From Porphyromonadaceae bacterium (lineage in GTDB: Bacteria; Bacteroidota; Bacteroidia; Bacteroidales; UBA12481), in contig QYQM01000134.1 of NCBI GenBank assembly GCA_007280905.1, forward strand, positions 1 to 47,382: a stretch of 47,382 nucleotides of DNA. Direction: 5' to 3'. Below are positions 1 to 28,040 of the stretch, one piece after another. The position numbers and the translations under genes are program-made. The notes under the pieces were generated by a model. It saw only the letters and a list, made by a program, of their open reading frames with translations. It searched no databases and had not been told where the DNA came from. How positions within the stretch are numbered: the first letter of the stretch is position 1; the number at the start of each line of letters is the position of its first letter.

Positions 1-15
1 ATTCATTACCAATCC

Positions 16-1011
16 TTAAACTTTAGAAAACGAGTAAAACGACCGCGCTTTAATGAGTGTAATGGGCCCCATAAAGATGTTTGTGACTTTCTTGTGATAT
101 TTCAGCGCGAATACCCCCAATCCTCCAGTAATATTGGTAACGATCTTACCACCAAAATCATCTGAGATTTTGTTAAGGTCAACATAGTCATAAAAATCTG
201 GCGAACCTGTATAAAGGTAAACCTCAATTTCACCGGGAAGTCTGTAGTCAACCCTGGGATCATCTTTAACATCTTGTCTGATTTGTGCCAGAAACTCATC
301 TCCGGGAACATAAATGGAAATGTTCTTGTATTCGCTAGAGAAGTGCCCGTTTTGTGTATTCCTGATAAATGATTTGTCTACCATTTGCTTAACTGTATCT
401 CCGTTTTTCATCACAGCCATGAAATGAAAGACAATATGTGCCTCATATCGTGCAAAGCCGATCAGATCTTCGAAGCCAATTTCAAATGGAAGTGCATAAA
501 ATTCCAGGAGTGATCTTAATCCCTGCCTGGGTGCAAAAATCTTTGGAGGTTCAAGATAATCAACTGAAGCAGAGATCAATCGTTGCTGACCAACGGAAAT
601 ATTTAAGACCAAATTTGTTCCCTTGATAAAAAAGGATGATATATCTGATTGACATTGATATAGTTGAAGTCCCTGATTGGTAAAATATCCTACTTCCCTT
701 GCTGGATTTTGTACCGGAAGAAACTTCAATTCATGGTATTTCCAGCCGGACTCGGTGTAAAACTCGATCTTCGGAGCTAATGTTTCATAGCATATCGAAT
801 CAGGATTATTGGCTGACTCGGATGCGATACTGCTGCCTTTAAATGAATGACTTATCCTGATGAAATGTATGGTATCGGCCGGATTGATAATTGCATAAAT
901 AACCGGATAGGATTCTCCATTATTTGAAATTTGGATATCCTGTTCACAGGAAAGAAGTAGCCAACCAGACAAGGCCACCACCAGAAAGATATTTAATTTT
1001 TTAATAGTCAT
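16..1011 (-). CDS. Uncharacterised lipoprotein, second copy of the non-FISUMP module partner
   Basis: The 331-residue product starts with a lipoprotein signal peptide: a basic N-terminus, a hydrophobic core and a lipobox ending LLLSC at about residue 22. The rest is predicted to be a soluble, beta-rich periplasmic or surface domain. It resembles the protein at 2096-3178 in layout: acidic start after the Cys, a PVIYAIINPADT segment matching PVIYGLIDYDD there, and a C-terminal ITGGLGVFA segment matching NGLGIFA. It overlaps the upstream FISUMP gene by 4 bp (ATGA). It may belong to the DUF4249-like group of Bacteroidetes lipoproteins, but I cannot confirm this. Function is unknown; the context suggests it works with the adjacent FISUMP lipoprotein. 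Confidence 0.85.
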   Translation of the reverse strand: MTIKKLNIFLVVALSGWLLLSCEQDIQISNNGESYPVIYAIINPADTIHFIRISHSFKGSSIASESANNPDSICYETLAPKIEFYTESGWKYHELKFLPVQNPAREVGYFTNQGLQLYQCQSDISSFFIKGTNLVLNISVGQQRLISASVDYLEPPKIFAPRQGLRSLLEFYALPFEIGFEDLIGFARYEAHIVFHFMAVMKNGDTVKQMVDKSFIRNTQNGHFSSEYKNISIYVPGDEFLAQIRQDVKDDPRVDYRLPGEIEVYLYTGSPDFYDYVDLNKISDDFGGKIVTNITGGLGVFALKYHKKVTNIFMGPITLIKARSFYSFSKV

Positions 1012-2102
1012 TTGTCTTTAGCGCAGCGCACAGAACAGGCATATCTTGCATTTGTCGGATGACCGCTCCCATATCTGTCATATGCAACAGTATTTCCACG
1101 AAGGTGGATTCTGTCACCTTCCGGAATCAACCCGAAATTATCAAAGCTATAGGTTATTGAATCATTCATCACATTATCTATTCCAATACTAATGTTCAAC
1201 CTTTGAAAGGCAATATTATTTCCGCTAAAGTCCTGCCATTTCTCCTCTCTGCTCGTGGAGGTCCAATAACGGCCCCGGAATTTCTGGTCACTAAAATACC
1301 GTTCATATTTCTCGCCGACCCTTGTCTCCCATATGAAGGTATAGTAGCCTCCGTATTTTAAATTTAGACCACCAGGGCCACCTGGGCTATAATAATAATC
1401 AAGGAACAGATAGGGTAAGTTAAACGGTGCGATAATGCTCCATTCTTCAAAAGAGGGTATATGCCATCCGGGTGGACAGATGCCTTGTCCTTTTTCCATG
1501 TTGGTATATTGCATTGCTTCATACCAGGAATACAAACCACCGTACTCTGCTATATTTTGAAAGTCATTATTATAGGCATAGGTCTCTACAACTCCATTGT
1601 CTTTTTGTAGGGAATCTGAGCAAATGACCGAACCATATTTTAAACTCTCAGCCATCCACCAATTCCTCTCCAGATATACAGTCTCGTATTTCTGCCCATC
1701 CCTCGGATCAGTCATTGAACCCTTTACAGGGATCGGAAAGACACGTACACTATCAGATAAAATGACCGAAAGTCCATCAGAATCAAATAATTCCATCCTG
1801 ATATAGTTCATTCCCTTCGTTGAAAACCGGTATAGAGCTTTAAACTCAGATTGAAAATCAGTATCCCATATCCCATCATTATTCCAATCCCATCTTACCG
1901 TAAGCTTTTCCTTAATGTCTTCAGCATCTGTAGATTTTGAGGCATCGAAAGTAAAAATGGTGGTAGTATCCCCGGCATAAGGAAAGACAGTCAGGACTCC
2001 TGATGGTGGGGTGTTTATCCTTTCCTCGTGGCAACTGAATAGTGCAATTACCACAAAAAGGATAATGTTTGCTTTAATCCTGTTGTTCGAAAGCTTCACC
2101 AT
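1008..2102 (-). CDS. FISUMP-domain lipoprotein with PKD-like domain, copy B
   Basis: 364 residues. A signal peptide with lipobox ALFSC (Cys near residue 24) is followed by a PKD/Ig-like segment at about residues 30-125 (FTFDASKSTDAED, then WDWNNDGIWDTD). A Fibrobacter-succinogenes-major-paralogous domain fills the C-terminal half, shown by DPRDGQKYETVYL, WWMAESLKYG, the YGGLYSWYEA segment and GICPPGWHIPS. Such proteins are exported and surface-associated in Bacteroidetes and Fibrobacter, with no established biochemical role. The gene overlaps the upstream lipoprotein gene by 7 bp and the downstream one by 4 bp, so the four genes are probably translated from one mRNA. Confidence 0.88.
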   Translation of the reverse strand: MVKLSNNRIKANIILFVVIALFSCHEERINTPPSGVLTVFPYAGDTTTIFTFDASKSTDAEDIKEKLTVRWDWNNDGIWDTDFQSEFKALYRFSTKGMNYIRMELFDSDGLSVILSDSVRVFPIPVKGSMTDPRDGQKYETVYLERNWWMAESLKYGSVICSDSLQKDNGVVETYAYNNDFQNIAEYGGLYSWYEAMQYTNMEKGQGICPPGWHIPSFEEWSIIAPFNLPYLFLDYYYSPGGPGGLNLKYGGYYTFIWETRVGEKYERYFSDQKFRGRYWTSTSREEKWQDFSGNNIAFQRLNISIGIDNVMNDSITYSFDNFGLIPEGDRIHLRGNTVAYDRYGSGHPTNARYACSVRCAKDK

Positions 2103-3178
2103 TTTACAAATTTCAAATGTTTGGTATATCTTCCATAAACCAGTGAATCCAGACTGTTTTTGTCAAGAGTAAATCCGTATTGCCCGTTTTTACTGGTTGA
2201 AGCGAAAATCCCCAATCCATTGATTACGTTTGAGATGGGCTTGCCGATCTGATCCGATACAATTTTATCTGATTCCAGATATTGACCAAATATCGGATCG
2301 GCATTAAAAACTACGAGGTCATAACTGATGAGTTTCCGGGCTTCCACTTCCGGGTTTGGTTTTATTCTGCCACCGATATGGGTGAGGATACTTTCGGTAA
2401 ATGGTAAACCACTATAATAAGTGAATTTTGACCCTCTATCGCCAATAAATACTTTCTCCTCAAACGGACTGAAACTCCAGGTTAACTGTTTTTCCAACCA
2501 CTCCCCGTTTTGTAATTCCTGGTAATGAAGGGTGATTTTGGGTTCATTATAATTCCCGTGTGAATCCCAGGACCATTCCACTAAATTATTATAAAGACTC
2601 ATCGATGTCGCTTTACCCAGACTCATTAAATATGGCCGTTCACATATTCGAGTAGAAGCCACTGCATAAATGTCGGTTCCTGGCTGTTGAACAACCAAAC
2701 GTAGAATAAGAGGATTGAGAGCACCGACGCCATATAGCCCATACTTTACAAATTCACTGGCAGGGAGTGTGTAAACTTTTCTGGATCTGCCTTCTGTCGG
2801 ATCAACAATCTGTTTTGGACGCATCTCCTTCCGGATTATCAGTTCACCATAATGTTGATAATCGGTTAACCATTGCTCCCAGCCATAGCTGCTACTATAA
2901 ACTCTTGCCTCCGGATCGAAACGTAATTCCAGTGCAACATTCAGTGAATCATAATAGAGATCAGTTCCAGATCCGATGCCGGCATTGCCTGGACCATCCG
3001 GGAGAAACGTCTTGGTAACAGATACCTGGTACTCCTGATCATCATAATCAATTAATCCATAGATAACGGGTATATCCTGATCCGGCATGCCGGGATTAAA
3101 ATCGGTTTCGCAATTTGTCAGCATGACCAAACTCAGTAAGGCTATCAGCCCTGATGTTATTGAACTTTTTTTATACAT
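2096..3178 (-). CDS. Uncharacterised lipoprotein, first copy of the non-FISUMP module partner
   Basis: 360 residues with a clear lipoprotein signal (hydrophobic core, lipobox MLTNC near residue 23). It resembles the protein at 16-1011 in order and motifs, including a PVIYGLIDYDD segment after the Cys and a C-terminal GKPISNVINGLGIFAS segment. No enzymatic motif is visible and the composition suggests a beta-sandwich. The start lies 22 bp inside the end of the preceding FISUMP gene, a strong sign of translational coupling. It may be DUF4249-like (often found beside TonB-dependent receptors), but I hold this loosely because no receptor is in the window. Confidence 0.85.
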   Translation of the reverse strand: MYKKSSITSGLIALLSLVMLTNCETDFNPGMPDQDIPVIYGLIDYDDQEYQVSVTKTFLPDGPGNAGIGSGTDLYYDSLNVALELRFDPEARVYSSSYGWEQWLTDYQHYGELIIRKEMRPKQIVDPTEGRSRKVYTLPASEFVKYGLYGVGALNPLILRLVVQQPGTDIYAVASTRICERPYLMSLGKATSMSLYNNLVEWSWDSHGNYNEPKITLHYQELQNGEWLEKQLTWSFSPFEEKVFIGDRGSKFTYYSGLPFTESILTHIGGRIKPNPEVEARKLISYDLVVFNADPIFGQYLESDKIVSDQIGKPISNVINGLGIFASTSKNGQYGFTLDKNSLDSLVYGRYTKHLKFVKW

Positions 3179-4119
3179 CTGACCGGTAGTGCTGCTTGAT
3201 AATAGTATGGAACTTCTCCATCAGGATTATAATATATTAAATGCATTGGGCCGTAGTACAAGATGACGTATGGCTTGTTGTTGGAATATTCACCATAGTA
3301 TTCACCGGTCCACCAGTGGCTGTCACCAATCGAAAACTCATAATTGTGGTACCAACCGTAAGTTCCTCCTTTGTTAGGCAGATCAAGATTCCAAAATCCG
3401 CCGGGTCCAAACAAATGCTCCTGCGGCGAAACGAGATACCCTTTGTTAAAGAGCTTCGCCAAAGCCACTCCATCCGGCAACTGCCATCCTTCCGGACAGA
3501 TTCCCCGCGGCAGATTCTCCTTTGAGAAACCGGAGACTTCTTTCCAGGTGTACAATCCGCCTTTGAATTCTTTCTGCGCTGAATCATTATTATAATAATA
3601 CTTCTCAACGATACCGTTGTTTTCCTGTCCTTGCGGGGCCAATATCCATTTGCCGTAATCGAGGTTCTCGGACATCCACCAGGTATCCTCGATCAGGGTT
3701 ATCTTATAGGTTTTTCCATCCCTGTCATCCGTCAGTTGCGATACTTTCATGATGTCGGTAATCCGAATTTCCAAGGAGAGGGTATCCGTTGCATCGTCCT
3801 GATCCTTAACCTCGAGAACCGGGTGGAATAATCCGTGTTGACGATAACGGTACGCGGCAACTTTCTGGGTTGCGTATTCAGTATCCCATGTCCCGTCGCC
3901 CTGAAAATCCCACCGGATAAAAAGTGCTAATTGATCATCTTCAGGGTCGGAACAGGCTGATGCATCAAATTCAAGAATGGCAATCGTGTCAGCCAGGTAG
4001 GCGGATATTTTAAATTGAGCTACAGGTGGTAAGTTTGTTTGTTCGCAGGAAACGAAAAACAGGAAGGTAAATAAACCCACAGCAAAGATTCTGATGTAAA
4101 TACTTCCCTTAAGCTGCAT
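3157..4119 (-). CDS. FISUMP-domain lipoprotein with PKD-like domain, copy A
   Basis: 320 residues and the first gene of the four-gene lipoprotein operon. Signal peptide with lipobox FFVSC (Cys near residue 25), PKD-like segment (LEFDASACSDPEDDQ, then WDFQGDGTWDTEY), and a FISUMP domain with DDRDGKTYKITLI, WWMSENLDYGKW, GGLYTWKEV and GICPEGWQLPD. It shares domain order with the gene at 1008-2102 and is most simply its duplicate. It is divergent from the MNT/HEPN pair with 138 bp between them, and that gap must hold the operon promoter. Confidence 0.88.
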   Translation of the reverse strand: MQLKGSIYIRIFAVGLFTFLFFVSCEQTNLPPVAQFKISAYLADTIAILEFDASACSDPEDDQLALFIRWDFQGDGTWDTEYATQKVAAYRYRQHGLFHPVLEVKDQDDATDTLSLEIRITDIMKVSQLTDDRDGKTYKITLIEDTWWMSENLDYGKWILAPQGQENNGIVEKYYYNNDSAQKEFKGGLYTWKEVSGFSKENLPRGICPEGWQLPDGVALAKLFNKGYLVSPQEHLFGPGGFWNLDLPNKGGTYGWYHNYEFSIGDSHWWTGEYYGEYSNNKPYVILYYGPMHLIYYNPDGEVPYYYQAALPVRCIKKVQ

Positions 4120-4213
4120 GGCGCTTGATTTTTCCTCTAAATTAAGATATATTTAGGAGATTGGAATTGCAGATTTCTCTTTTGAATGAGATGAAGTCAA
4201 AGACTCGGTTGGC

Positions 4214-4244
4214 CTTGTTGAGACCAGAAGAATTCTTATATTAG
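4214..4244 (+). promoter_or_regulatory. Candidate Bacteroidetes promoter for the MNT/HEPN pair
   Basis: CTTG at 4214-4217, a 19-nt spacer and TATATTAG at 4237-4244 approximate the Bacteroidetes -33 (TTTG) and -7 (TAnnTTTG) elements, with one mismatch in each. The start codon follows 13 nt downstream. Assigned by pattern only. Confidence 0.4.
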
Positions 4245-4257
4245 CAAAAAAAAAGCA

Positions 4258-4578
4258 ATGATTGGTAGCGATAAAATTGCTGAAATAGTTGCAAAAATAG
4301 CTCTGGGATATACTCCTGACAAGATTATCCTTTTCGGATCCTATGCTGCCGGAAATCCAAATGACGACAGCGATCTGGATTTATTTGTAATTAAGGATTC
4401 CGATTTGCCAAGACCTCAAAGGACAGCCCTGGTCAGAAAAATGCTTTATGGCGCTATGATTCCTATTGACCTTATTGTTTTTACTCCCAAAGAAATCGCA
4501 GAATCAAAGGACAATCGATTCAGTTTTGTTCACGAAGTATTAAATTCCGGAAAAACAGTATATGAACGGGCAAGCTAG
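4258..4578 (+). CDS. Minimal nucleotidyltransferase (MNT) antitoxin of an MNT/HEPN pair
   Basis: 106 residues with the DNA-polymerase-beta-like nucleotidyltransferase signature LFGSYAAGNPNDDSDLDLFV at about residues 25-45: Gly-Ser, then two acidic metal ligands in SDLDL. Proteins of this size next to a HEPN gene are MntA-like antitoxins that can inactivate the HEPN RNase by nucleotide transfer. The reading frame overlaps the HEPN gene by 17 bp, so the two are translationally linked. Length and motif spacing look intact. Confidence 0.88.
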   Translation: MIGSDKIAEIVAKIALGYTPDKIILFGSYAAGNPNDDSDLDLFVIKDSDLPRPQRTALVRKMLYGAMIPIDLIVFTPKEIAESKDNRFSFVHEVLNSGKTVYERAS

Positions 4579-4984
4579 CGAAATTGAACGATGGATTGTC
4601 AAGGGAGATCATGACCTGGGTACCGCCAAGATTACCTACCTGTATATCCCGGAATACCTTGATACAGTGACTTATCATTGCCAACAGGCTGTCGAGAAGT
4701 ATTTGAAGGCCTATTTGATTTTTCATTCAATTTCATTTAGATTCTCCCATGATTTGGTTTACTTGCTGGATTTGATTGTTCAAAAAGATTTGGATTTCAA
4801 TAATTATTATGATTCTGTTTCAGAGTTGCAAGGATATGCTGTAGAGATTAGATATCCGAATGAAACCATTTTCCTCTCCAACGAAAAAGTAGAAAAGGCG
4901 ATGGTAATTGCTAAGGCCATACGTGAGTTGGTGACAGGGAAAATGAATATATCAATTGATTATAATGATGTAATCGACAAATAA
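4562..4984 (+). CDS. HEPN-domain protein, toxin partner of the MNT protein
   Basis: 140 residues, mostly helical, of the pfam HEPN type: N-terminal [16 protein letters not shown], central [13 protein letters not shown], then [11 protein letters not shown] and a late VEIRYPNE segment. HEPN proteins paired with MNT genes act as RNases or regulators in toxin-antitoxin modules. A canonical R-x4-6-H catalytic motif is not obvious. RWIVKGDH has R-x6-H spacing, but this could be chance. The start ATG lies inside the MNT gene. It ends 55 bp before fumarase. Confidence 0.85.
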
Positions 4985-5039
4985 AATTGCAGGTCTCGGT
5001 TTTAGTATTTTTGGACCATTAACCAACTACATTTTACCC

Positions 5040-6674: not shown

Positions 6675-6887
6675 ATGAAAAGCAGAGAATTAATCAGGAT
6701 ATTGATGAGGGCAGGCTGGTATATCGTCAGGCAAAAAGGGAGCCACATCATTATGAGGCATCTCATTAAAGATAGGTAAATCGTAGTCACTATGCATGGA
6801 AATCAGGATATGGGTGAGGGGCTGGTAAGGAAGATATTAAAGGAGGCTGGATTAACTAAAGGAGGAAAAAAGAATGAAGAAAATTGA
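6675..6887 (+). pseudogene. hicA: hicA toxin gene interrupted by an in-frame stop
   Basis: The frame from ATG 6675 gives a HicA-like N-terminus (MKSRELIRILMRAGW, then RQKGSHIIMRH). It stops at TAA 6777-6779 after 34 codons, then continues in the same frame as VVTMHGNQDMGEGLVRKILKEAG to a TGA at 6885. This is the complete HicA mRNA-interferase fold, about 70 residues, including the conserved Gly-Ser-His with catalytic His. One codon, where HicA proteins usually have a residue leading into the second strand, is a stop. The reading frame is otherwise clean, so the lesion is recent or a sequencing error. It overlaps hicB by 14 bp. Confidence 0.75.
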
Positions 6888-7260
6888 TTTTACCGTAGAG
6901 AAAACCAATACCGGTTATTCGGCTTATGCTGAGAAACATATGATTTATACTGCCGGTTCCAACTGGGAAGAACTTGAATACAATATCCTCGAAGCTACTA
7001 ATCTGTATTTTGAAGATGAAGGCAAGGTTGTTACCCCGGATGACCTTCGAATCTCTCTTGACCTGCCCCAGTTCTTCGAATTCTATAAAGTCATTAATGC
7101 ATCGGCGTTGAGTGAGCGGATCAAAATGAACCAAAGCCTTCTGGCTCAATATATCAGCGGACATAAAAAACCCTCTGCCGCCCAATTGCAACGAATTCTC
7201 AAAGGTATCCGGCAAGTTGGTCGCGAACTCGCAGAGATTCACATTATAGGCTCCAAATAA
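6874..7260 (+). CDS. hicB: HicB-type antitoxin with C-terminal helix-turn-helix
   Basis: 128 residues. The N-terminal half is the partially degraded RNase-H-like HicB fold (MKKIDFTVEKTNTGYSAYAE, then GSNWEELEYNILEATNLYFEDEG). The C-terminal part is an XRE-like DNA-binding segment (SALSERIKMNQSLLAQYISGHKKPSAAQLQRILKGI). It would neutralise HicA and repress its own promoter, where a 20-bp palindrome lies. An AAAGGAGG Shine-Dalgarno precedes ATG 6874. The antitoxin is intact while its toxin has a stop, as expected when a toxin is lost first. Confidence 0.87.
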   Translation: MKKIDFTVEKTNTGYSAYAEKHMIYTAGSNWEELEYNILEATNLYFEDEGKVVTPDDLRISLDLPQFFEFYKVINASALSERIKMNQSLLAQYISGHKKPSAAQLQRILKGIRQVGRELAEIHIIGSK

Positions 7261-9460: not shown

Positions 9461-11542
9461 ATGAGACCTGATTTTACGAAACCCTGGATGACTCCGGAAC
9501 AGATTCCGGTAAAACCAAAATATAGCGCTGATGATCTGGCAAATATGGAGCATCTGAATTATGCTGCAGGATTGCCACCCTATTTACGCGGACCCTATTC
9601 CACGATGTACGTAATGCAGCCCTGGACGATCCGCCAGTATGCAGGATTTTCCACTGCCGAAGAGTCGAATGACTTTTACCGCCGCAACCTGGCTGCCGGT
9701 CAGATGGGGCTTTCTGTGGCTTTCGACCTGGCAACCCACCGCGGCTATGATTCCGATCATCCCCGTGTGGAGGGTGATGTCGGGAAAGCCGGTGTGGCCA
9801 TCGATTCGATCCTCGATATGAAGGTTCTCTTTAATTCGATCCCGCTGAATAAGATGTCGGTTTCGATGACCATGAACGGAGCTGTATTGCCGGTTATGGC
9901 TTTCTATATTGTAGCCGCACTGGAGCAGGGAGCCAAACTCGAAGAATTGCAGGGAACCATCCAGAACGATATCCTGAAGGAATTTATGGTGCGGAATACC
10001 TATATCTATCCGCCAGCCTTCAGCATGAAAATCATTGCCGATATCTTCGGCTATATTTCCAGGTACATGCCAAAGTTCAACTCGATCAGCATATCGGGAT
10101 ACCATATCCAGGAGGCTGGCGGTACAGCAGATATTGAGCTGGCCTATACATTGGCCGACGGACTCGAGTACCTGAGAACCGGGGTGAAATCGGGACTTGA
10201 TATTGATGCTTTTGCCCCGAGGCTATCCTTTTTCTGGGGCATCGGGATGAACCATTTCATGGAGATTGCCAAGCTAAGGGCTGCCCGGATGCTGTGGGCT
10301 AAACTGGTTAAGCAATTCAATCCGAAGAATCCGAAATCACTTGCCCTCCGCACCCATTCCCAAACCTCGGGCTGGAGCCTTACCGAGCAGGATCCTTTCA
10401 ATAATGTCACCCGCACCTGCGTGGAGGCTTTGGCCGCTGCGCTGGGCCATACCCAGAGTTTGCACACCAATGCACTCGATGAGGCCATCGCGCTGCCAAC
10501 CGATTTCTCGGCGCGAATTGCCCGTAACACCCAGATATACATTCAGGCAGAAACCGGCATCTGCCGTTCGGTGGATCCATGGGCCGGTTCGTACTATGTT
10601 GAGGCTCTTACCCATGAACTTGCTCAAAAAGCGTGGAAGCTGATCGAAGAGGTCGAAGAGCTGGGCGGAATGTCGAAAGCCGTTGAAACCGGTATCCCGA
10701 AGATGCGTATCGAGGAGGCCTCAGCCCGGAAACAGGCGCGCATCGATAGCAGCCAGGATACCATTCTCGGCGTAAATAAATTTCGTCTGGATAAAGAAGA
10801 TCCGATCGAAACACTCGATGTGGATAATACTAAAGTCCGGTTGTCACAGATTGAACGGTTAAAAAAACTGCGTGCAGAACGAAATGAGGCCGAATGCCAG
10901 GCTTCGCTTGATGCACTGACCCGTTGTACTGAAACCGGCGAAGGCAACCTTCTTGAGCTTGCTGTGGATGCCGCGAAAAAACGTGCATCTTTGGGTGAAA
11001 TTTCGTATGCTTGTGAGAAAATTGTCGGGAGGTTCAAAGCTGTGATTCGTTCGATATCTGGAGTTTATTCATCGGAATACGTGGGAAACGAAGATTTCCA
11101 GAAAGCACGCGACCTGGCTGATAAGTTTGCGACTATCGAAGGCCGCCGCCCGAGAATCATGGTTGCCAAAATGGGGCAGGATGGTCACGACCGGGGAGCA
11201 AAAGTGGTTTCCACCGGTTATGCCGATATTGGGTTCGATGTGGATATGGGCCCATTGTTCCAGACTCCGGCCGAAGCGGCAAAAGATGCCGTTGATAATG
11301 ATGTTCATGTGCTGGGGGTATCCAGTCTGGCTGCCGGCCATAAAACGCTCGTTCCGCAGGTCATTGAAGAACTGAAAAAACTGGGTCGCGATGATATCAT
11401 GGTGATCGTGGGCGGTGTAATACCCCCGCAGGATTATCAATATCTATACGACCTGGGAGTTGTCGGCATATTCGGACCAGGCACCAGCATTCCGAAAGCA
11501 GCCATTCAGATACTCGAAGTGCTGATACAGAGCAGGAGGTAA
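9461..11542 (+). CDS. mutB: Methylmalonyl-CoA mutase large (alpha) subunit
   Basis: 693 residues, slightly shorter than the roughly 715-730 usual for this subunit. It is the catalytic, adenosylcobalamin-binding chain. The active-site barrel includes [20 protein letters not shown], which holds the substrate-binding Tyr. The C-terminal cobalamin domain has GQDGHDRG, with the cobalt-ligating His near residue 575, followed by GPLFQTP and the GGVIPPQDY segment. It is cotranscribed with mutA, and an AGGAGG at its 3' end serves as ribosome site for the next gene. Confidence 0.96.
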
Positions 11543-11543
11543 T

Positions 11544-12116
11544 ATGCCGTTCGACTTTTGGGGGATAATCGTTGTACCGATATTGATCTTCCTTGCGAGG
11601 ATCGGGGATGTGTCCATTGGTACCGTCCGTATCATCTTCGTATCCAAAGGGTACCGTTATCTTGCACCTCTCCTGGGCTTTTTCGAGGTTTTCATCTGGC
11701 TTATGGCCATGACCAAGATTCTGCAGAATCTCGACCGTTGGTATTACTATTTTGCTTATTGCGGAGGATTTGCTACCGGGAACTTTATCGGGATCATCCT
11801 CGAAGAAAAAATCGCTATTGGCTATACTGCTGTTCGGGTGATCAGCCGGGTCCCAGCCGATGATCTGATCAAACAACTTCAGGATGCCGGGTACGGAGTC
11901 ACCTACGACACCGCCGAAGGCAGCACAGGAACGGTGGAGGTCATTTATACCATCATCAAGAGGTCGGAACTCCAGGCAATGATTTCCCTGATCAATCAGT
12001 TCAATCCCAAAGCCTTTTATACCGTAGAGGATGTAAAAGCAGTAAGCGAAGGTATTCACAGGTTTACCAACTACCAGAAAAACGTCCTTTTCAAACGCGG
12101 GCGGATGGGGAAGTAG
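11544..12116 (+). CDS. UPF0316 (DUF2179-type) membrane protein
   Basis: 190 residues. The N-terminal half has about three membrane segments (FWGIIVVPILIFLARI, then the YLAPLLGFFEVFIWLMAM and YYFAYCGGFATGNFIGI stretches). The C-terminal half is a soluble domain with GYGVTYDTAEGSTGTVEVIY, typical of DUF2179. The family has no proven role. The start codon is 2 nt after the mutB stop, with an AGGAGG ribosome site inside mutB, so it is tightly coupled to the mutase genes. Confidence 0.9.
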   Translation: MPFDFWGIIVVPILIFLARIGDVSIGTVRIIFVSKGYRYLAPLLGFFEVFIWLMAMTKILQNLDRWYYYFAYCGGFATGNFIGIILEEKIAIGYTAVRVISRVPADDLIKQLQDAGYGVTYDTAEGSTGTVEVIYTIIKRSELQAMISLINQFNPKAFYTVEDVKAVSEGIHRFTNYQKNVLFKRGRMGK

Positions 12117-12117
12117 T

Positions 12118-12207
12118 TCGCTACGCTCCCTAATTATGCTCCGCTACGCTACGCTAATTATGCTCCCTTCGGTCGCTAATTGTGCTCGCTGGTGCGAGCT
12201 AATTATA
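12118..12207. repeat. Imperfect tandem CGCTACGCTAATTATGCTCC repeat cluster between convergent genes
   Basis: Three to four decayed units alternate CGCTACGCT, or its variant CCTTCGGTCGCT, with AATTATGCTC or AATTGTGCTC. The part at 12155-12187 is nearly identical, in reverse orientation, to 27013-27040. The cluster fills the gap between the convergent UPF0316 and M28 peptidase genes, and similar sequence continues into the M28 3' end. Confidence 0.65.
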
Positions 12208-12222
12208 GCCTTTGTACCTTAA

Positions 12223-14349
12223 TTAGTGAGCGTAGCGAACCAATGAACCAGCGTTAGCGAGTATAACCAGCCCCGCAGTCTTCAGCACCTCAATATAATC
12301 GATAATTGCCTGCAAATCAGACTCTCTTGATGATTGCGTATCGAGCATCTGTTTGATCTGTACTGCATTATGCTTCCCGTTGCATAAACGTTCGAGTTCC
12401 CCGGTATTCGCGATATCCCGGTATGAGGCGGTCATCTGTTCACGCGTCATCTGGGGCATGAACTGGCGGTATCCATTGTAACCGGCCTCCTTGACCTTTG
12501 ATGTGGCCACCGGAATGATTGTCATGGCTTTTTTCTCCAGCTCTTCAGGCTTCAATAAAACAACCGGAACACCCAATTTTGCGGCAAGTTGTTTCATCTC
12601 CTGGTCGAGAATCAACAACTGGCCCTCTGCGAGTTTTTTCAGCTGAGCCGTCTGCAGTGCCACTGTGGCAATCAAATTGGCATCTTTTGGTGCCAGCTCG
12701 AGGGTGGTTTCAATGGTTTCGATTTCATTCAACAGAGCTCCCTCGATGTATCCACGAATCCTTTTATACCCCGTAGCCAGGTTATCAGTCTGCAATTTCG
12801 AGAGTCCGTCGATCGATCTTCCCTGCTGCATTCCCAGGCGGCGGATGGAATTGGAAAACACTTCACCGGCAATTTTCGCAGCCATTCCGGCATCGGCGGC
12901 GGCAATCGTATACGCTGAGGCGGCCCCGATCACACAGCAACGCTTTAACTGGGTGGGATCGAGCTTATCCGACAGATCCTGCGAAGTGTGGTAATAAAGA
13001 TCCGGCCATGTGATCATCATCACAGCGGGAACCCCTACTCCCCAGTCGTTGAACACCTCATGGTCGGATGCACCATAGTGGGCTTCAATAGCATAATAGA
13101 ACGGTTCGTCGGATCCCGATGGAGCGACGATCCGGTTCAGATAACCTTCGCGGCCGGAAAGAACGAGGCTGGTACGGTTGGTTTCTCCCACATACCGGAA
13201 GTAATTTTCCATTACATCATTGATATAATGAGGATTACCGAAAGTCGTGCGCTCAAGGTTGAAATACGATTGGCTCTGGCTCAGCAGAATCCCAACCATA
13301 TCCAGGTTGATGTTGCACAAGGTCTTTTCCATGATATCCTTATGGGCATTTACCCACGGACCGGTTCCTGAAAATTCGGGAACCCAGATAAACCGGACAC
13401 TGCGGGCAGGGCGGGGCAGACGGCCATCATTGTACATGGTATTCAGCATGCGCGCCATTTCGAGCAGACAGGCACCGCCTGAAAGGTCATCATTGGCACC
13501 CTGCTTAATCACTCCTTCGAAAATATGTGCGGAGAAAATAACCTCGCCGGCATTGGGGTCGGTTCCGGGCAAAACACATGTAGGTACTTGCAGATCAACG
13601 CTTTCCATAGCTGTCTTAACGGTGGCATGTACCTTTATTTTTTCTCCGCGCGTGAGCCTGTCGCGGAGGTAATACCCTTCTCTAGGAGGCATCTGGAAAG
13701 CAAATCCTTTTGCCTGGCCGCCACGTCCGCCTAAACTCGTATAGGGCATCTGGATAGGATCCGCAAGCGGGCGGGGTGAATTGAATGATAATATTCCAAC
13801 AGCTCCGTTTTTAGTGATCAGCGACTGAACCTGACCGGGCGAGGCATACGTCACTACGATTTTTCCGGCAACGGCCAGGGTGTCGTATTCCCCCTTCCGG
13901 GCTTCACTAATCCAGATCAGCTCGGCTTCCACATCGGCATTCTGACTGCCGGAGACCAGCATGGCTACCTGATCTTTGTAGTCGGCCAGTTTTTTCATTC
14001 CGGGCGAAACTTCCCACAGTTCTCCACTAATCCCATCCCATGTGGGTTTCATATCGCCAAATCGCTCCAGGTGTGCATCAATGATCCCGTATTCTTTGAG
14101 TTTGTCCATAACATACTGAGATTCCCAGAGGACGGTCTGGTACTCTTTGGATAACCGGTTCCGGGTATAACCGCCCATTTCGATGTCGTGGGCAAGGGCT
14201 GTTTCACCGGATGCTTCACCGATCACCTGATCCATCAGCTTTTTATCGAGTAGGGTCCACTGGTAATGAGGGACAAACTGGGCCATTGCGCCAACAGTCA
14301 TAACAGTTAGCATCCCGGCCAGAAACCAGAAGTTGCGAAGGTTTTTCAT
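12223..14349 (-). CDS. Secreted M28-family zinc metallopeptidase
   Basis: 708 residues with an N-terminal signal peptide ending near MAQ (residue 23). A PA-like insert (about residues 120-250) precedes the M28 fold. Zinc-site motifs are visible: the SAHIFEGVIKQGANDDLSGG segment, WVPEFSGTGPW, NLDMVG and HYGASDHEVFNDWGVGVP. Such enzymes are exported aminopeptidases or carboxypeptidases; specificity is not readable here. The last codons (AGSLVRYAH and stop) lie in sequence like the GCTAACGC/CGCTACGCTCAC repeats next to the gene, so the tail may have been repeat-altered. Confidence 0.92.
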   Translation of the reverse strand: MKNLRNFWFLAGMLTVMTVGAMAQFVPHYQWTLLDKKLMDQVIGEASGETALAHDIEMGGYTRNRLSKEYQTVLWESQYVMDKLKEYGIIDAHLERFGDMKPTWDGISGELWEVSPGMKKLADYKDQVAMLVSGSQNADVEAELIWISEARKGEYDTLAVAGKIVVTYASPGQVQSLITKNGAVGILSFNSPRPLADPIQMPYTSLGGRGGQAKGFAFQMPPREGYYLRDRLTRGEKIKVHATVKTAMESVDLQVPTCVLPGTDPNAGEVIFSAHIFEGVIKQGANDDLSGGACLLEMARMLNTMYNDGRLPRPARSVRFIWVPEFSGTGPWVNAHKDIMEKTLCNINLDMVGILLSQSQSYFNLERTTFGNPHYINDVMENYFRYVGETNRTSLVLSGREGYLNRIVAPSGSDEPFYYAIEAHYGASDHEVFNDWGVGVPAVMMITWPDLYYHTSQDLSDKLDPTQLKRCCVIGAASAYTIAAADAGMAAKIAGEVFSNSIRRLGMQQGRSIDGLSKLQTDNLATGYKRIRGYIEGALLNEIETIETTLELAPKDANLIATVALQTAQLKKLAEGQLLILDQEMKQLAAKLGVPVVLLKPEELEKKAMTIIPVATSKVKEAGYNGYRQFMPQMTREQMTASYRDIANTGELERLCNGKHNAVQIKQMLDTQSSRESDLQAIIDYIEVLKTAGLVILANAGSLVRYAH

Positions 14350-14496
14350 AATAAAGTCAGTTTAGGTCAAAAAATCGGGTCAAGTTAGGAAAAGTGAGAT
14401 CGCATGGTTCACTATTTAACTTTTTTTAAGATAAGAAATGGACACCATTCCCCCTGGTAATTTTCCTATTTTTACCGGTTCAAACTGAAAAACGAC

Positions 14497-14958
14497 ATGA
14501 AACCGGCACTGCAGATAATACTTGCTTTTATATTGATACTTACGGGATGTAAAGAGAAACTGTTGCAGGAAACCACAACAACCTGGCCGGATGGCAGTCC
14601 GCAAAAAGTATCCTTTTATCGGATAACCGGCGACAAGAAGGATAAAGTGAAGGAGATACGCTATTACCAAAGCGGTAAGAAGGAGATGGAAGGTGAATTT
14701 GCCGGCGGTAAAAAAGATGGTGCCTGGTCGAGCTGGTTTGAAAATGGCAAGAAGCAGAGTGAAGGTTTTTTCAAGAATGATATGCGCAACGGCAAAGCCG
14801 TCGTATATCGTGAAAACGGCTTCAAATATTACGAAGGAACTTATTCACTGGGTAAACTCCACGGCACCTGGATCACTTACGACACCGACGGCAGCCGCCT
14901 CAAGGAAACGCTTTATGAATACGATAGAAAAGTTAAGGAAATAGATTTTAAACAATGA
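14497..14958 (+). CDS. MORN-like (YwqK-type) repeat lipoprotein
   Basis: 153 residues. Signal peptide with lipobox LILTGC (Cys near residue 18). The body is a run of about 20-residue repeats: WPDGSPQKVSFY, YYQSGKKEMEGEFAGGKKDGAW, WFENGKKQSEGFFKNDMRNGK, YRENGFKYYEGTYSLGKLHGTW. These beta-hairpin repeats are annotated in databases as YwqK-family antitoxin-like, but no toxin neighbour supports that here. It is divergent from the M28 gene; the 147-bp gap must contain both promoters. Confidence 0.85.
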   Translation: MKPALQIILAFILILTGCKEKLLQETTTTWPDGSPQKVSFYRITGDKKDKVKEIRYYQSGKKEMEGEFAGGKKDGAWSSWFENGKKQSEGFFKNDMRNGKAVVYRENGFKYYEGTYSLGKLHGTWITYDTDGSRLKETLYEYDRKVKEIDFKQ

Positions 14959-15599
14959 AAATGAAGATATTGGTTTTTCCCGAAATGCAAAACCTGATTT
15001 CTACATTCAAAGGTCATGGAATAGATGTTTTCATTGTATCAGCAAGTTAAAAGCCTGTTGTAGAAGTATTTTCAGGTATTGGAACATTCGGTTACAATGT
15101 GCCTCCTGAAAATGTTACTGCTATGGAGCTGGCAACAGCCACTGATGGCAAAATTATTCCTGAACTTAAAGCGGGATGGGTTAAAACAGTCAGGCAAGGA
15201 AAAGTTGATGCCATTAATATAGTCATAAAAGCTGGACTTGGCAAAAACTGGGATCCCTTATTCTCAGCCGGCGACAGCGATGGCGATTATGAAATGTCAA
15301 CAAAGTTTCCGGATATGAAATTGACATTGATCTGGAACCGGGTGAAAGGTGGGGATATTGGAAAGCTTTGCAAACAAGCCGTGAATGAAATGAACAGCAC
15401 CACACCCGGATATATTCTTCAGGGACGTAACGAAAATACCGGTGTAGCTTCGCCATCCTCAGAATCTATTCTTTTTGGCAAGTCAATACCGCAATTTCTA
15501 ATCAGTAATCAACCGGGTGTACTTGATAGCAGGATAAGTCCGAAAGGCATCGACATTTTTTTAGGACCGAAACAAAACGCAAACGTTGGACAAACATAG
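14955..15599 (+). pseudogene. Remnant of a HAD-family phosphatase, truncated and with an in-frame stop
   Basis: The frame reads FPEMQNLISTFKGHGIDVFI then VSAS (HAD motif II), hits TAA at 15048-15050, and resumes as KPVVEVFSG, a VPPENVTAMELAT segment and AGDSDGDYEMSTKFPD (HAD motif IV, DxxxD). This order is that of phosphorylcholine-phosphatase-like HAD hydrolases. The N-terminal DxDxT nucleophile region is missing. The ATG at 14955 overlaps the stop of the upstream lipoprotein gene (ATGA), so the join there is recent. An alternative reading as a 166-residue gene from GTG 15099 would lack two catalytic motifs. Confidence 0.72.
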
Positions 15600-15813
15600 C
15601 AGGGCGCTATGTTGAAATGATTACAACCGGCGACTAGATCAAGTCCGGCTAAACCATTGTGCCCGAAACCTGATTGGCCAACATGATGTCCTCGAAAAAT
15701 TTTATCCAGTGCGCATCTCGCAACTGCTTAGCGGGGATTGATTGTCATTTATTGCTAATTTTAGCTGGTGGATACCATGAGAAGTGGCGGAAACTGATAC
15801 GAAATACTGAAAA

Positions 15814-17574
15814 ATGACCAGCCGTTTGACATATAAAAAAAGATTGAATCGGTTAAAGCGGCTTCCTTTTTTGATCAGCCTTCTTGCTATTCTGGCTATT
15901 ATTTACGATTTTGGCTTCGACCAATCAGATAAGATAGAGTCCGCTCTGGTCAACCTCTATTACCTTTCCCTTCTCACCGGATCCTTATCTGTTCTCGGCC
16001 GTTATTTATTCTCACGGACACGACCCCGGCTCAAGTTAATCCCGTTTGATGCCATTCTTTTTTTATTCCTGGCCGGATTGATCGGACAGTTTTTTGGTTG
16101 GGTCAATCTTCCGTTTTTTTATCACAAAGTCTGGGTTTATATGGCAGTTGGGGCAGTATTTCTGCGGGAGTTCTCTGCACTCCGACTCGATTTTAAAAAG
16201 CAAAATTTAAACCCGGCTCAATTGTTCATGATCAGTTTTCTGGCGCTGATCCTGGCAGGAGCCTTTCTTTTGTTGCTGCCCAATGCATCTTATGGCAGGA
16301 TTGGTTTTTTAGATGCCCTGTTTACTTCTACAAGCGCAGTTTGTGTGACTGGCCTGGTCGTTGTTGATACCGGCAGTTTTTTTACCCTGTTCGGACAATC
16401 CATTATTCTTATACTGATCCAGGCTGGTGGGATTGGCATCATGACTTTTACAAGTTATTTCAGTTACTTTTTCAGAGGCGAAAGTTCATACGAAAACAAT
16501 CTGATTCTCAGCGATCTGATGAGAACTGAAAGAATGGCCGATGTATTCGCAACGCTGCGGAAGATATTATTGGTCACTTTTATCGTGGAAGCCATCGGAG
16601 CAGTGATTATTTACAGCACCCTTGATCCTTCCTTATTGTCCTCTGTCAGGAACCGGATATTCTTCTCCGTGTTTCACTCGGTTTCCGGTTTTTGCAATGC
16701 CGGATTCTCGACTCTGTCCAACAGTCTGTATGATGAAGGTTTCCGGTTCAATTACCCATTGCAAATGAGCATCGCGACCTTGTTTATTTTGGGGGGATTG
16801 GGGTTTCCTATCGTGTTTAATTTTGTGAAATACATAAAACATCTGATTGTAAATCGTCTCCATTTGTTCCGCTGGAGAAAACGGGCGGTTCATCATGCCT
16901 GGGTAATCAATATTAACACCCGCATAGTTCTTGTAACCACCGGGATTCTGCTCCTCGGTGGCACCTTGTTGTTTTATCTGTTAGAATACCATAATACTCT
17001 GGCAGAGCATCATGGAATCGGGAAGATTATTACGGCTTTTTTCGGGGCGGCTACACCCCGGACTGCAGGATTTAACTCAGTGGATACCACTGCGCTGAAC
17101 TTCTCCACAGTCCTGATTATACTGTTCCTGATGTGGGTGGGGGCTTCGCCAGGATCAACCGGAGGGGGAGTAAAGACGAGTACTCTGGCTATTTCCATCC
17201 TTAATATTTTTAGCCTGGCCCGGGGAAAAGACCGGATAGAGCTATTCAGGAGAGAAATCTCCGTGATCTCGATTCGCCGCGCCTCTGCCCTGGTGGTCCT
17301 TTCAATCCTGGTTGTCGGATTATCCGTCTTTTTGGTCAATGCGTTTGATCCGGATAATAAACTGAAGGATATACTATTCGAATGCCTTTCTGCTTTCAGT
17401 ACGGTCGGCCTGAGCCAGGGAATTACAGCCGGACTGACTGATGCCAGTAAGGGTGTTTTGATCCTGACCATGTTCATAGGCCGCGTGGGAACTCTCACTA
17501 TGTTAACGGCGTTCCTTCATAAGATTAAGCATTTGAATTACCGCTATCCTACGGAAGAAATTTTAATCAATTAA
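15814..17574 (+). CDS. TrkH/KtrB-type potassium transporter membrane subunit
   Basis: 586 residues with two extra N-terminal membrane segments before the four-fold repeated M1-P-M2 unit. Filter-like segments TSAVCVTGL, HSVSGFCNAGFS, AATPRTAGFNSVD and LSAFSTVGLSQG each contain the conserved Gly of the K+ pore. GASPGSTGGGVKT is the family motif after the third pore. The cytosolic TrkA-type subunit follows 12 bp downstream. It imports K+ or K+/Na+ across the inner membrane. The 214-bp gap upstream holds nothing else I recognise. Confidence 0.94.
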   Translation: MTSRLTYKKRLNRLKRLPFLISLLAILAIIYDFGFDQSDKIESALVNLYYLSLLTGSLSVLGRYLFSRTRPRLKLIPFDAILFLFLAGLIGQFFGWVNLPFFYHKVWVYMAVGAVFLREFSALRLDFKKQNLNPAQLFMISFLALILAGAFLLLLPNASYGRIGFLDALFTSTSAVCVTGLVVVDTGSFFTLFGQSIILILIQAGGIGIMTFTSYFSYFFRGESSYENNLILSDLMRTERMADVFATLRKILLVTFIVEAIGAVIIYSTLDPSLLSSVRNRIFFSVFHSVSGFCNAGFSTLSNSLYDEGFRFNYPLQMSIATLFILGGLGFPIVFNFVKYIKHLIVNRLHLFRWRKRAVHHAWVININTRIVLVTTGILLLGGTLLFYLLEYHNTLAEHHGIGKIITAFFGAATPRTAGFNSVDTTALNFSTVLIILFLMWVGASPGSTGGGVKTSTLAISILNIFSLARGKDRIELFRREISVISIRRASALVVLSILVVGLSVFLVNAFDPDNKLKDILFECLSAFSTVGLSQGITAGLTDASKGVLILTMFIGRVGTLTMLTAFLHKIKHLNYRYPTEEILIN

Positions 17575-17586
17575 ACTGATAAAAGC

Positions 17587-18276
17587 ATGAAATTCATTGT
17601 TATAGGTCTTGGCATTTTCGGTTCTTCAGTGGCCACGAAACTCACTCGGTATGGTAATGAGGTCATTGGAGTGGACAGCCAGATGGGTAAGGTTGAAGCT
17701 TTGAAAGACAAGATAACCCATGTTGTCTGTTTGGACAGTACGGATCCGCAAGCCGTTACTAACTTGCCCTTAAAAGATACTGACGTGGTAATTGTGAGCA
17801 TCGGCGAGGATGAAGGCGCCAATATCAAAACTACGGCCCTTATGAAGCAACTGAAGGCAAGGAGGATCATCAGCCGTGCGATTTCACCCTTGCATGAAAT
17901 GATCCTCGAAGCCATGGGTATTGATGAAATACTTCGTCCGGAGGAAGAAACGGCTGAACGATGGGCCAAAAAACTCAATATCCGGGGAGTGATCGATTCC
18001 TTTGAGTTAATAGGGGACTATAACATCATTGAAGCGATTGTTCCCAAGCGGTTTTTTGGAAAAAAACTTGAAGAGATCGGGCTGAGACGGAACTACCATG
18101 TTTTGGTTCTCTCAACAATCCAGCAAGTTCAGACCAGAACACTTTTCGGTACACCCAAACAGGAATCCGTCATTCGGGAACTTGCCTCTGGCGGCACCAT
18201 TCTCAATGATGGGGATAAATTTATTCTTTACGGAAAAATCAAAGATATTCGGCGTCTGTTAGAAGAGAATGGATAA
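17587..18276 (+). CDS. TrkA/KtrA-type potassium uptake regulatory subunit
   Basis: 229 residues. The N-terminal RCK/Rossmann domain has the dinucleotide motif GLGIFGSS (residues 6-13) and acidic DSQ after the second strand. The C-terminal RCK_C domain spans about residues 135-220. It binds ATP/ADP or NAD(H) and gates the TrkH-like pore encoded just upstream. The product has a single RCK copy, as in KtrA, unlike the double-copy E. coli TrkA. Confidence 0.94.
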   Translation: MKFIVIGLGIFGSSVATKLTRYGNEVIGVDSQMGKVEALKDKITHVVCLDSTDPQAVTNLPLKDTDVVIVSIGEDEGANIKTTALMKQLKARRIISRAISPLHEMILEAMGIDEILRPEEETAERWAKKLNIRGVIDSFELIGDYNIIEAIVPKRFFGKKLEEIGLRRNYHVLVLSTIQQVQTRTLFGTPKQESVIRELASGGTILNDGDKFILYGKIKDIRRLLEENG

Positions 18277-18295
18277 ACACAGCTCCGTTCATTAC

Positions 18296-18311
18296 CGCGT
18301 CACGCGTCACG
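18296..18311. repeat. GTCACGC heptamer repeat
   Basis: CGCGTCACGCGTCACG is a two-copy heptamer tandem of the family also found at 34796-34816, 40769-40827 and 44797-44819. It lies between the convergent ktrA-like gene and the FISUMP fragment and contains the stop codon of the latter. Confidence 0.6.
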
Positions 18312-18684
18312 TTTTCTCAGTCACATGGCCGGAGATCGCTGAAAAGGTTTGTGAAAGCACTTTCGACACCGGAACCAATCTAATTCTTAACACACCGTAC
18401 CGACCGACCGCCATACTTGTAATACCTGTGCCGGCCAATTCCGGCGTCGAGTCCGGCAAGTAGGCCAGGTTTTCAGCCATCCAAACCTGGGTACCAATTG
18501 TTAGATATTTGTAAACGTGATTGTCACGGCTATCGGTAAAGTTTCCGGCGGGCAGAAAAACCTCAGGTTTGCAACAACCAGATATAACAATCAGTAGACC
18601 AACTAAAAATGCTGTTTCTAAAGGTATTGCTTTTAGCTTGTTCCGGGTTAACCAATTTCTTGTTTGCATTCCAATCAATTCCAA
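18307..18684 (-). pseudogene. Truncated FISUMP-domain lipoprotein
   Basis: A 125-codon ORF with a lipoprotein signal (LIVISGCC) and the first FISUMP block: NFTDSRDNHVYKYLTIG, QVWMAENLAYLPDS. After that the sequence leaves the family pattern (GRYGVL appears, but no YNND, YGGLYxW or GICPxGWHxP block), and the frame ends inside a GTCACGC repeat. This is a 5' fragment of a gene like those at 1008-2102 and 3157-4119. The first ATG (18684) is less likely than ATG 18669. It could still be translated as a short lipoprotein. Confidence 0.68.
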
Positions 18685-18913
18685 AAATTAAACACCGGAA
18701 ACGCCAGGTCGACGAACAAATTTACAACTTTATCGGGTCATTTCTATAATTCAGCGCCTCATAGGAATTGTGCAGTTGAACCTTGCAGTTACCTTGCAAG
18801 CCGGACAAGGTTCAGATTTCATGATTCAGTTACCCCTTGCAAAAAAAAGTCCAGTATCGAAGTCTTTTTAATCTCTTTTTAATCCCGTTTTCATTTCATT
18901 TTAATTTCCTTGA

Positions 18914-18932
18914 ATTACGTTAGTGACGTAAT
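18914..18932. promoter_or_regulatory. Inverted repeat upstream of the coiled-coil gene
   Basis: ATTACGT (18914-18920) and ACGTAAT (18926-18932) form a perfect 7-bp inverted repeat around TAGTG, ending 18 bp before the ATG at 18951. Position and symmetry suggest a regulator site, but no partner is known. Confidence 0.4.
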
Positions 18933-18950
18933 CAATCAAAGGGTTTTGAA

Positions 18951-19811: not shown

Positions 19812-19859
19812 CGTGGTTGAAATAAGACATTAAAATATTAATTTAAAATATTGATTATC

Positions 19860-19961
19860 ATGGCTAAGAAAAAAATTCCGGATCTCGTAAAGGCTCTATT
19901 TGTTTTTCTTTCAATTGTTCTTCTTATGGTACTGGCTAAAATATTATTTAAAATTCCATAG
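19860..19961 (+). CDS. 33-residue single-span membrane peptide
   Basis: ATG 19860 to TAG 19961 encodes a basic start (MAKKKIPDLVK) followed by a hydrophobic helix (ALFVFLSIVLLMVLAKILF) and KIP. It sits 48 bp after the coiled-coil protein on the same strand. A cationic head and one hydrophobic span are typical of small membrane proteins, and also of type I toxins. No ribosome site is obvious. Confidence 0.45.
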   Translation: MAKKKIPDLVKALFVFLSIVLLMVLAKILFKIP

Positions 19962-20076
19962 GAGAAGCGAAAGAAAAGATTCATTCGAATGGATGAGGAA
20001 GTTACTTCCTCGGAATGGAATAATAAGTTACATTACATCAAGGTAAGCACTCTGTTAATTTTGATTTTCATCAATC

Positions 20077-20112
20077 GAGGGACATGGCAGATTTATGCTG
20101 TTTATGTCCCTC
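20077..20112. terminator. Hairpin between the small membrane ORF and nhaD
   Basis: GAGGGACAT (20077-20085) and ATGTCCCTC (20104-20112) form a perfect 9-bp stem, with a second CAG/CTG pairing inside the loop. No T-run follows directly, so it may be a transcription attenuator, an mRNA-stabilising hairpin or a weak terminator. Confidence 0.45.
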
Positions 20113-20151
20113 TTCGTTTAAATCAGTAATTTCATATTAAATAGACAAGGC

Positions 20152-21555: not shown

Positions 21556-21560
21556 TCCCT

Positions 21561-28038: not shown

Positions 28039-28040
28039 GG

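Follow-up and report, generated by a model that had tools for sequence, protein, structure and literature searches.

Recurring pairs of FISUMP and DUF4249-like lipoprotein genes in a Bacteroidales family, and a locus at which two of them appear to have been joined

Introduction

In SusC/SusD and other surface glycan-binding systems, lipoproteins are encoded together, occur as many paralogues, and combine beta-sandwich stalks with a binding head. Four putative lipoprotein genes of a comparable plan stand in a row at the start of a 47,382-nucleotide stretch of DNA (hereafter the window) from a Porphyromonadaceae bacterium of the order Bacteroidales (GenBank assembly GCA_007280905.1, contig QYQM01000134.1, here C163, positions 1 to 47,382 of the forward strand). 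In the open reading frame (ORF) list, this minus-strand row consists of a FISUMP gene (F4, 3157-4119), a partner gene (P3, 2096-3178), a second FISUMP gene (F2, 1008-2102) and a second partner gene (P1, 16-1011), and the subject of this article is the FISUMP-partner pair that the quartet contains twice.

Two other described systems are closer to these proteins at the level of the protein family. According to the passage of one study that treats these genes, disruption of the DUF4249 protein BT2173 or of the TonB-dependent transporter BT2172 has similar consequences (PMC11003636). The FISUMP domain, or Fib_succ_major, is described in the relevant passages of other studies as resembling DUF1566 and as one of the domains targeted by diversity-generating retroelements (PMC4159848), and a FISUMP protein is tabulated among the cell envelope proteins of the F. 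succinogenes surface proteome (PMC4619616). These passages on FISUMP give no function beyond that of a retroelement target and an envelope protein, and a recurring pair supplies it with a partner to test; the matched pair does the same for DUF4249, which is linked to TonB transport. A published description of a FISUMP/DUF4249-like pair was not found in the literature searched.

Comparison of the locus with these systems reveals both likenesses and differences. As in the BT2172/BT2173 type, the partner is a DUF4249 or DUF4249-like lipoprotein, and some pairs carry a TonB receptor in their operon, but the usual neighbour of the partner is a FISUMP lipoprotein rather than a receptor, the receptors beside pairs form their own group among those fetched, and the partner profile has 7-27 matches per family genome as opposed to 0-1 in 29 other genomes of the order. 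F2 and F4 resemble known Fib_succ_major proteins in exceeding the family cut-offs and in being putative lipoproteins with a C-terminal FISUMP head; they differ in that the head is carried on a PKD stalk and has a standing partner gene, and no retroelement was seen adjoining. The SusC/SusD systems share the co-encoded lipoproteins, the many paralogues per genome and the beta-sandwich stalks with a presumed binding head, and one orthologous locus (L108/L155) also holds a receptor, two pairs and a GH92 gene. However, a Pfam SusD match was found in none of the 27 FISUMP and none of the 35 partner proteins scanned, and there is no SusC-like receptor at the window locus.

Recurrence of the pair

The genome that contains the window, a 4.39 Mb draft in 185 contigs, has 39 FISUMP matches, 38 of which are over the cut-off. 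Of the twelve family genomes compared, 7 have a completeness of at least 90% and a contamination of no more than 5%; a profile of the partner (A4) matched all 12, with 27 places in the own genome and 7-27 in each of the 11 others. In 29 other genomes of the order the same profile had exactly one match in 9 and none in 20, and the difference points to an expansion of the partner family in this lineage. In a wider draw of 247 genomes of the order, in which up to 8 candidates were scored per genome so that the counts are lower bounds, 106 matched the partner profile at 1e-20, 4 from this family and 102 from others; among these 102, at least one match was counted in 92, at least two in 9 and at least three in 1.

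The sequence-only reading had proposed a search for the adjacent pair in other genomes, and the pair indeed recurs many times, both in the own genome and in the relatives G004, G007 and G008. The top-listed partner places of G004 (20 of 27), G007 (15 of 23) and G008 (7 of 17) were fetched with their surroundings. At a distance of one or two genes, and within the same-strand run, a FISUMP gene accompanies 17 of 22, 13 of 16 and 6 of 8 partner ORFs, respectively, or 36 of 46 when the three relatives are pooled. In the own genome, where the loci were partly picked around FISUMP hits, the corresponding count is 17 of 21 ORFs; one gene is broken into two of these 17 ORFs, which thus stand for 16 genes. 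At L020 (7817-8620), a partner gene is split into pieces of 116 and 146 amino acids (aa) after an open FISUMP gene, suggesting that some pairs may decay. Two layouts are found, one with a short FISUMP gene (about 320-370 aa) directly before the partner, and one with the partner, a small lipoprotein of ~146 aa and a ~600-aa FISUMP protein, which has several PKD domains in the scanned example, L034. The ~146-aa lipoprotein occurs in L027, L028, L034, L035 and other loci, and the two copies scanned have no Pfam match. As judged from sequence, the association of FISUMP with a DUF4249-like gene appears to be a standing pair of known parts.

A DUF4249 partner gene also stands alone beside dnaK and panB, at L037 (6235-7257) in the own genome and in G002, G004, G006, G007 and G008. 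Among the 9 genomes of the order with a single match, 6 have it beside dnaK and/or panB, and the other 3 show neither gene in the short stretches available; this solo arrangement thus extends to several other families of the order, and it looks like the ancestral copy.

Common history of the two families

To compare the histories of the two proteins, trees were built from 32 pairs with direct junctions (FISUMP of 280-430 aa, partner of at least 290 aa, duplicates removed, and the reverse order and long-FISUMP layout left out). The FISUMP and partner trees have 19 of 29 splits in common, with a maximum of 3 in 2000 shuffles, and the correlation of their distances is 0.78, with a maximum of 0.26 in 5000 shuffles. 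When one pair per orthologue group was chosen by hand, the remaining 19 pairs shared 7 of 16 splits (maximum 3 in 2000 shuffles) and had a correlation of 0.56 (maximum 0.46). Some rows, such as L018, L113 and L117, are placed differently in the two trees, in which several terminal branches are long. Joint inheritance of the pair is well supported by these data. The sequence-only reading had taken the strict pairing as a sign that the proteins work together; the pairing is borne out, and the recurrence and matching trees make it very probable that FISUMP and partner do work together. In addition, the paralogous pairs, with 16 genes in the own genome, form a natural set for finding the residues that decide cognate contact.

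Predicted domains and folds

Each of the four proteins has a signal-peptide-like N-terminus and a lipobox-type cysteine (F4 Cys25, P3 Cys23, F2 Cys24 and P1 Cys22), called by a pattern script and by reading of the N-termini. F4 (320 aa) and F2 (364 aa) score 81.2 and 69.8 bits against TIGR02145 (cut-off 41.65) and 61.8 and 49.1 bits against PF09603 (cut-off 33.9), although the best stretch spans only profile positions 5-81 and 3-76 of 187, with a second stretch in F2 at a loose threshold. The domain order is the same in both, with a PKD domain at about 31-118 and a FISUMP domain from about 128 in F4, and the corresponding domains at 29-125 and from about 129 in F2, and a shared ending of the type VRC(I/A)K is visible by eye in their alignment. 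Pfam names the PKD domain in F4 (PKD_4, 27.8 bits, cut-off 27) and not in F2, yet the N-terminal part of an AlphaFold2 (AF2) model of F2 (mean predicted local distance difference test score, pLDDT, 81.1; predicted template modelling score, pTM, 0.72) matches PKD domains (2c26, Z 13.1, 92 residues, root-mean-square deviation, rmsd, 1.8). A FISUMP profile (A8) finds only Protein Data Bank (PDB) chains with PKD, in or near the PKD range. A C-type-lectin-like binding fold is probable for the FISUMP head on the basis of the literature; the fold search barely reached this half, and its profile finds no solved structure. Matches to the surface glycan-binding proteins 7kwc (E 2.1e-4, template modelling scores 0.15/0.22, rmsd 20.6) and 7kwb were poorly aligned and were not used. 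The FISUMP relative in L034 has a weak Lcl_C match of 22.7 bits (cut-off 34.9).

The sequence-only reading had called the partner an unknown lipoprotein. It is not wholly so: P3 (360 aa) has no Pfam match, but P1 (331 aa as read) exceeds the cut-off for DUF4249 (PF14054, 32.1 bits, cut-off 28.5), and phmmer finds P3 from P1 (36.0 bits, E 8.9e-11). P1 and P3 fall in one profile family, and DUF4249 matches are present in 11 of the 35 members of a partner alignment (A7; E <= 0.001), so the partner probably belongs to or near DUF4249. The statement that neither family has a known job is therefore half right, given the genetic tie between the DUF4249 protein BT2173 and the TonB-dependent transporter BT2172 reported in the passage cited above (PMC11003636). 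An AF2 model of P3 (mean pLDDT 77.6, pTM 0.71) has two predicted beta-sandwich domains. Resemblances to complement and macroglobulin domains, transglutaminase, VPS26 and cytokine receptors (Foldseek, VIA) have Z <= 7.3 and mostly large rmsd, and were set aside as a common arrangement.

Because FISUMP domains are known as retroelement targets, the possibility that variation of the FISUMP heads is driven by a retroelement was considered, and it was not supported by the positions of reverse transcriptase genes or by repeat searches at the window locus and on C126. The draft genome has 3 RVT_1 matches, none of which is on C163 or on C50, the contig that most probably continues the locus (see below). 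The long direct repeats in window positions 1-5000 are two stretches common to both FISUMP genes (45 nt at 71% and 35 nt at 74%), and on C126, which has both a reverse transcriptase gene and a FISUMP pair, there is only one 26-nt repeat match in 9500-29419 and no sign of a template and variable repeat. The C126 reverse transcriptase (296 aa) stands in a row between a helix-turn-helix gene and a gene for a 261-aa protein that is trypsin-like by eye (L219, 3605-5679, own genome G000), a set that is possibly a retron-type defence system.

Proposed function and alternatives

In the model proposed here, the FISUMP protein, with its lipid anchor, PKD stalk and a FISUMP head of probable C-type-lectin-like fold, would be made first, and the DUF4249-like lipoprotein of two beta-sandwich domains would be made second and in step with it. 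Both proteins would most likely face outward from the outer membrane and combine into a capture complex, in which the FISUMP head would provide variable ligand recognition and the DUF4249-like protein, from a family linked to TonB-dependent transporters, would act as a structural or hand-over partner. Some lineages keep a TonB receptor in the operon; the window locus has none. The model builds on the observed anatomy of the genes, their recurrence, the congruence of the trees, the synteny and the receptor genes in some loci, and it predicts a surface location, ligand binding, physical contact between the two proteins, and an outcome in import or adhesion. That the pair forms a surface capture complex of a stalked FISUMP head and a beta-sandwich lipoprotein, related to DUF4249/TonB-receptor uptake, is in our estimate an even proposition. 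A more specific version is less likely than not: a large family of matched surface pairs, with more than 12 per genome in this uncultured lineage and each FISUMP head tied to its own DUF4249-like partner, might load their own group of TonB receptors or act alone in recognition, and might have been shuffled between loci, partly by prophages, into longer coupled strings like the quartet.

Several observations weigh against this model. Congruent trees indicate that partners are rarely exchanged, and are no proof of contact because linked genes are inherited together anyway. Of the 15 own-genome partners that went into profile A4, 13 have a FISUMP gene beside them, so the set of loci is not neutral, and 10 of the 46 partner ORFs in the relatives are without a FISUMP gene in their run. 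Of the 32 FISUMP proteins, 28 show the lipobox pattern, as do 25 of the 32 partners. In the partners, an acidic residue follows the lipobox cysteine at +4 and +6 with frequencies of 0.80 and 0.56, as compared with 0.22 and 0.24 in 63 other lipobox proteins; this enrichment is suggestive with regard to exposure on the outer face, but it may be a structural motif rather than an export signal. The P3 model has no fold match above the common arrangement (best Z 7.3). The list of structural matches to F2 was filled by the PKD half and contains no lectin-like fold for the FISUMP half, which the fold search thus barely tested, and a FISUMP domain profile (A9) has no match to PDB sequences at E <= 1. 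Finally, a TonB receptor is absent from the window locus.

The alternative that survives best is TonB-linked uptake proper, in which the pair would serve a BT2172/BT2173-like transporter, perhaps one for glycans, as its outer lipoprotein component, and in which a receptor encoded elsewhere may serve several pairs whose operons have none. The kinship of the partner with DUF4249 (the P1 match and the 11 of 35 members of A7) and the shared phenotypes of BT2172 and BT2173 in the published passage (PMC11003636) are in line with such a role. So are the three lineages (L018, L155/L108 and L160) whose operon includes, next to the pair, a TonB receptor of 766-777 aa where complete, with CarbopepD_reg_2 and Plug domains. 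When the ORFs of the fetched loci are compared, the best matches of these receptors are one another, at 33-42%, as opposed to 23-27% over long alignments, and once 33% over a short one, with the receptors beside ordinary DUF4249 genes. The orthologous loci L155 (1242-11415) and L108 (1-8266) resemble a small glycan uptake locus, with a TonB receptor, two FISUMP-partner pairs and, as the next gene to one of these pairs, a GH92 glycosidase gene; in addition, a sulfatase gene lies about 4 kb from the L160 pair. However, at the stricter profile threshold a receptor is found in the run of a pair only in these three lineages (with a looser threshold, receptor-like ORFs are also picked up near L112, L117, L119 and L123), prfB is what follows at the window locus, and with 7-27 partner matches per genome the receptors would need to be shared. 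Taken together, this alternative is possible but doubtful.

It could also be argued that there is no joint function and that two unrelated lipoprotein genes were co-duplicated as linked neighbours, since linked genes have a common history by default. The partner ORFs without a FISUMP gene in their run, and the copies by dnaK/panB without FISUMP in the stretches seen, would fit this explanation. On the other hand, with 39 FISUMP matches in the own genome, chance FISUMP neighbours would be rare, and the same arrangement is found again at unlinked loci in distant paralogues, whose partners are about 16-25% identical to P3 in A4. An absence of joint function is thus improbable.

Slightly less probable still is a prophage-borne surface coat, with the pair as prophage cargo that alters the lysogen surface, through adhesion or by excluding other phages, and with modules spread by phages. 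In G004, the orthologue of F2-P1 lies within a tail gene cluster (L130/L092), where a tape-measure gene (phrog_1533, E 5.9e-36) is 99 bp away, and in the own genome phmmer finds relatives of this tape-measure gene about 4-6 kb from the pairs L019 and L020; the L019 relative has a PhageMin_Tail match, and L019 is also near an endolysin-like gene (phrog_894). Counting L092 and L130 as the same place, only these 3 places came up when the fetched loci, 183 in all, many of them overlapping and 115 of them with a partner ORF, were scanned for relatives of 12 proteins of two such clusters, a choice of proteins by which others may have been missed. Moreover, the L020 piece itself is without a PHROG match, an ordinary DUF4249 gene with a receptor and without FISUMP (L041) is likewise near endolysin-like genes, and no phage gene adjoins the window copy.

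Origin of the quartet

The two pairs of the window fall in different groups of the trees. F4-P3 groups with L099/L148 (G004) and L146, which are the orthologues of F4, and F2-P1 groups with L092/L130 (G004) and L131, with support of 100/100 in both trees in each case. In an approximately unbiased (AU) test, forcing the two groups, which were named after the tree was seen, into one clade gave p-AU values of 0.0089 for FISUMP, a rejection, and 0.059 for the partner, which is no rejection at the 0.05 level. Orthologues of P3 (84%) are present in G001 and G004, with a sister (30%) in G007; F2 has orthologues in G004 (81%), G005 (66%) and G007 (60%). Among the 12 genomes only that of the window has both pairs side by side. 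In G004 they are on different contigs, and the locus syntenic with the window holds only F4-P3, with the F2-P1 orthologue in the phage tail gene cluster described above.

On the basis of the trees and synteny, the quartet looks like two old paralogous pairs that were brought together rather than a fresh duplication. The sequence-only reading had presented it as one pair duplicated in tandem, which, in spite of the same order and domain plan in both halves and a partner AU test that alone does not reject one clade, is very unlikely in view of the FISUMP AU result, the nearest relatives of each half lying elsewhere, and above all the G004 synteny, by which it is largely contradicted. As for the direction of joining, F4-P3 would be the older resident next to the fumarase gene, with F2-P1 added behind it, and prophages may have been the carriers of pairs. 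The locus can be viewed as two coupled lipoprotein operons closely juxtaposed into one, with start codons nested in conserved upstream ends.

Gene overlaps and neighbouring genes

The order of the four genes and the overlaps of 22, 7 and 4 bp that had been read from the window are confirmed by the ORF coordinates. The two halves are also similar beyond the signal peptides, with F4 and F2 36% identical and P3 and P1 24% identical in whole-length two-sequence alignments. At the F4/P3 overlap (22 bp, 3157-3178, minus strand), the P3 ATG is inside the Arg-Cys codons (aga tgt) of the conserved FISUMP ending; at the P3/F2 overlap (7 bp, 2096-2102, minus), the F2 ATG is inside the Lys-Trp-stop codons (aaa tgg tga) of P3; and the F2/P1 overlap (4 bp, 1008-1011, minus) reads ATGA. 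An overlap of 19 or 22 bp, a length given by the Arg-Cys nesting for the printed endings, is present at 9 of the 32 direct FISUMP-to-partner junctions, and the 7-bp junction after an ending in FVRW recurs in L088/L137, which are one locus seen twice. A later in-frame Met is a possible true start in L019, L088, and perhaps L030 and L092; by eye, the printed N-termini of P3, L099, L146, L119 and L123 contain no later Met that would leave a usable signal peptide, GTG and TTG starts not being weighed. The nesting of the partner start codon in the end of the FISUMP gene suggests that the two proteins of a pair are probably made in step, and that the genes of the quartet may be translationally coupled.

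The window begins at the first base of C163, and another contig, C50, most probably continues the locus past position 1, because its first 108 bases are the reverse complement of window positions 1-103 except for one 5-base insertion and because it restores a family-type ending to P1. When the P1 frame is read into C50 (translation of C50 2-103), it ends in MDSLKRGRFTRFLKFKDW followed by a stop codon, the same kind of conserved family ending as that of P3, which ends in LDSLVYGRYTKHLKFVKW. The 5-base difference is near the 3' end of P1 (window 16-80, minus) and leaves the conserved ending out of frame, and the stop codon expected in the frame common to relatives and C50 is at 6-8 (minus) by sequence reading. 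P1 as read therefore most probably carries a frame change, from strain variation or from the assembly.

The sequence-only reading had suggested that a TonB receptor or secretion gene past position 1 would be informative, but C50 instead shows a convergent prfB (PCRF and RF-1 domains), followed by NamZ, a calcineurin-like phosphoesterase and a GH92 glycosidase gene, the last ~3.6 kb past P1. Neither kind of gene adjoins the quartet, whose neighbours are prfB on the P1 side and a nucleotidyltransferase/HEPN pair followed by fumarase on the F4 side, and a consensus scan of C50 1-400 found no terminator after P1. The syntenic locus of the relative G004 (L148) has, in order, a mutase, a 538-aa gene, a 128-aa gene, FKBP, fumarase, one FISUMP-partner pair, two other genes, and then prfB, NamZ and phosphoesterase in the same order as on C50; the mutase, the 128-aa match and the phosphoesterase were recognised by eye. 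In the window, the mutase-like gene, the 128-aa gene and fumarase keep this order, without the 538-aa and FKBP genes between them. The 128-aa gene (window 6874-7260) and its L148 counterpart were considered as HicB-like, an assignment that was dropped as they have no Pfam match.

The window has, between F4 and fumarase, a nucleotidyltransferase gene (106 aa) and a HEPN gene (140 aa) on the plus strand (4258-4984), which overlap by 17 bp and are likely an MNT/HEPN toxin-antitoxin pair. L148 has nothing at this site and L146 has a gene for a 944-aa protein that is sensor-like by eye; because the three loci differ in content here, the site between the pair and fumarase seems to accept insertions.

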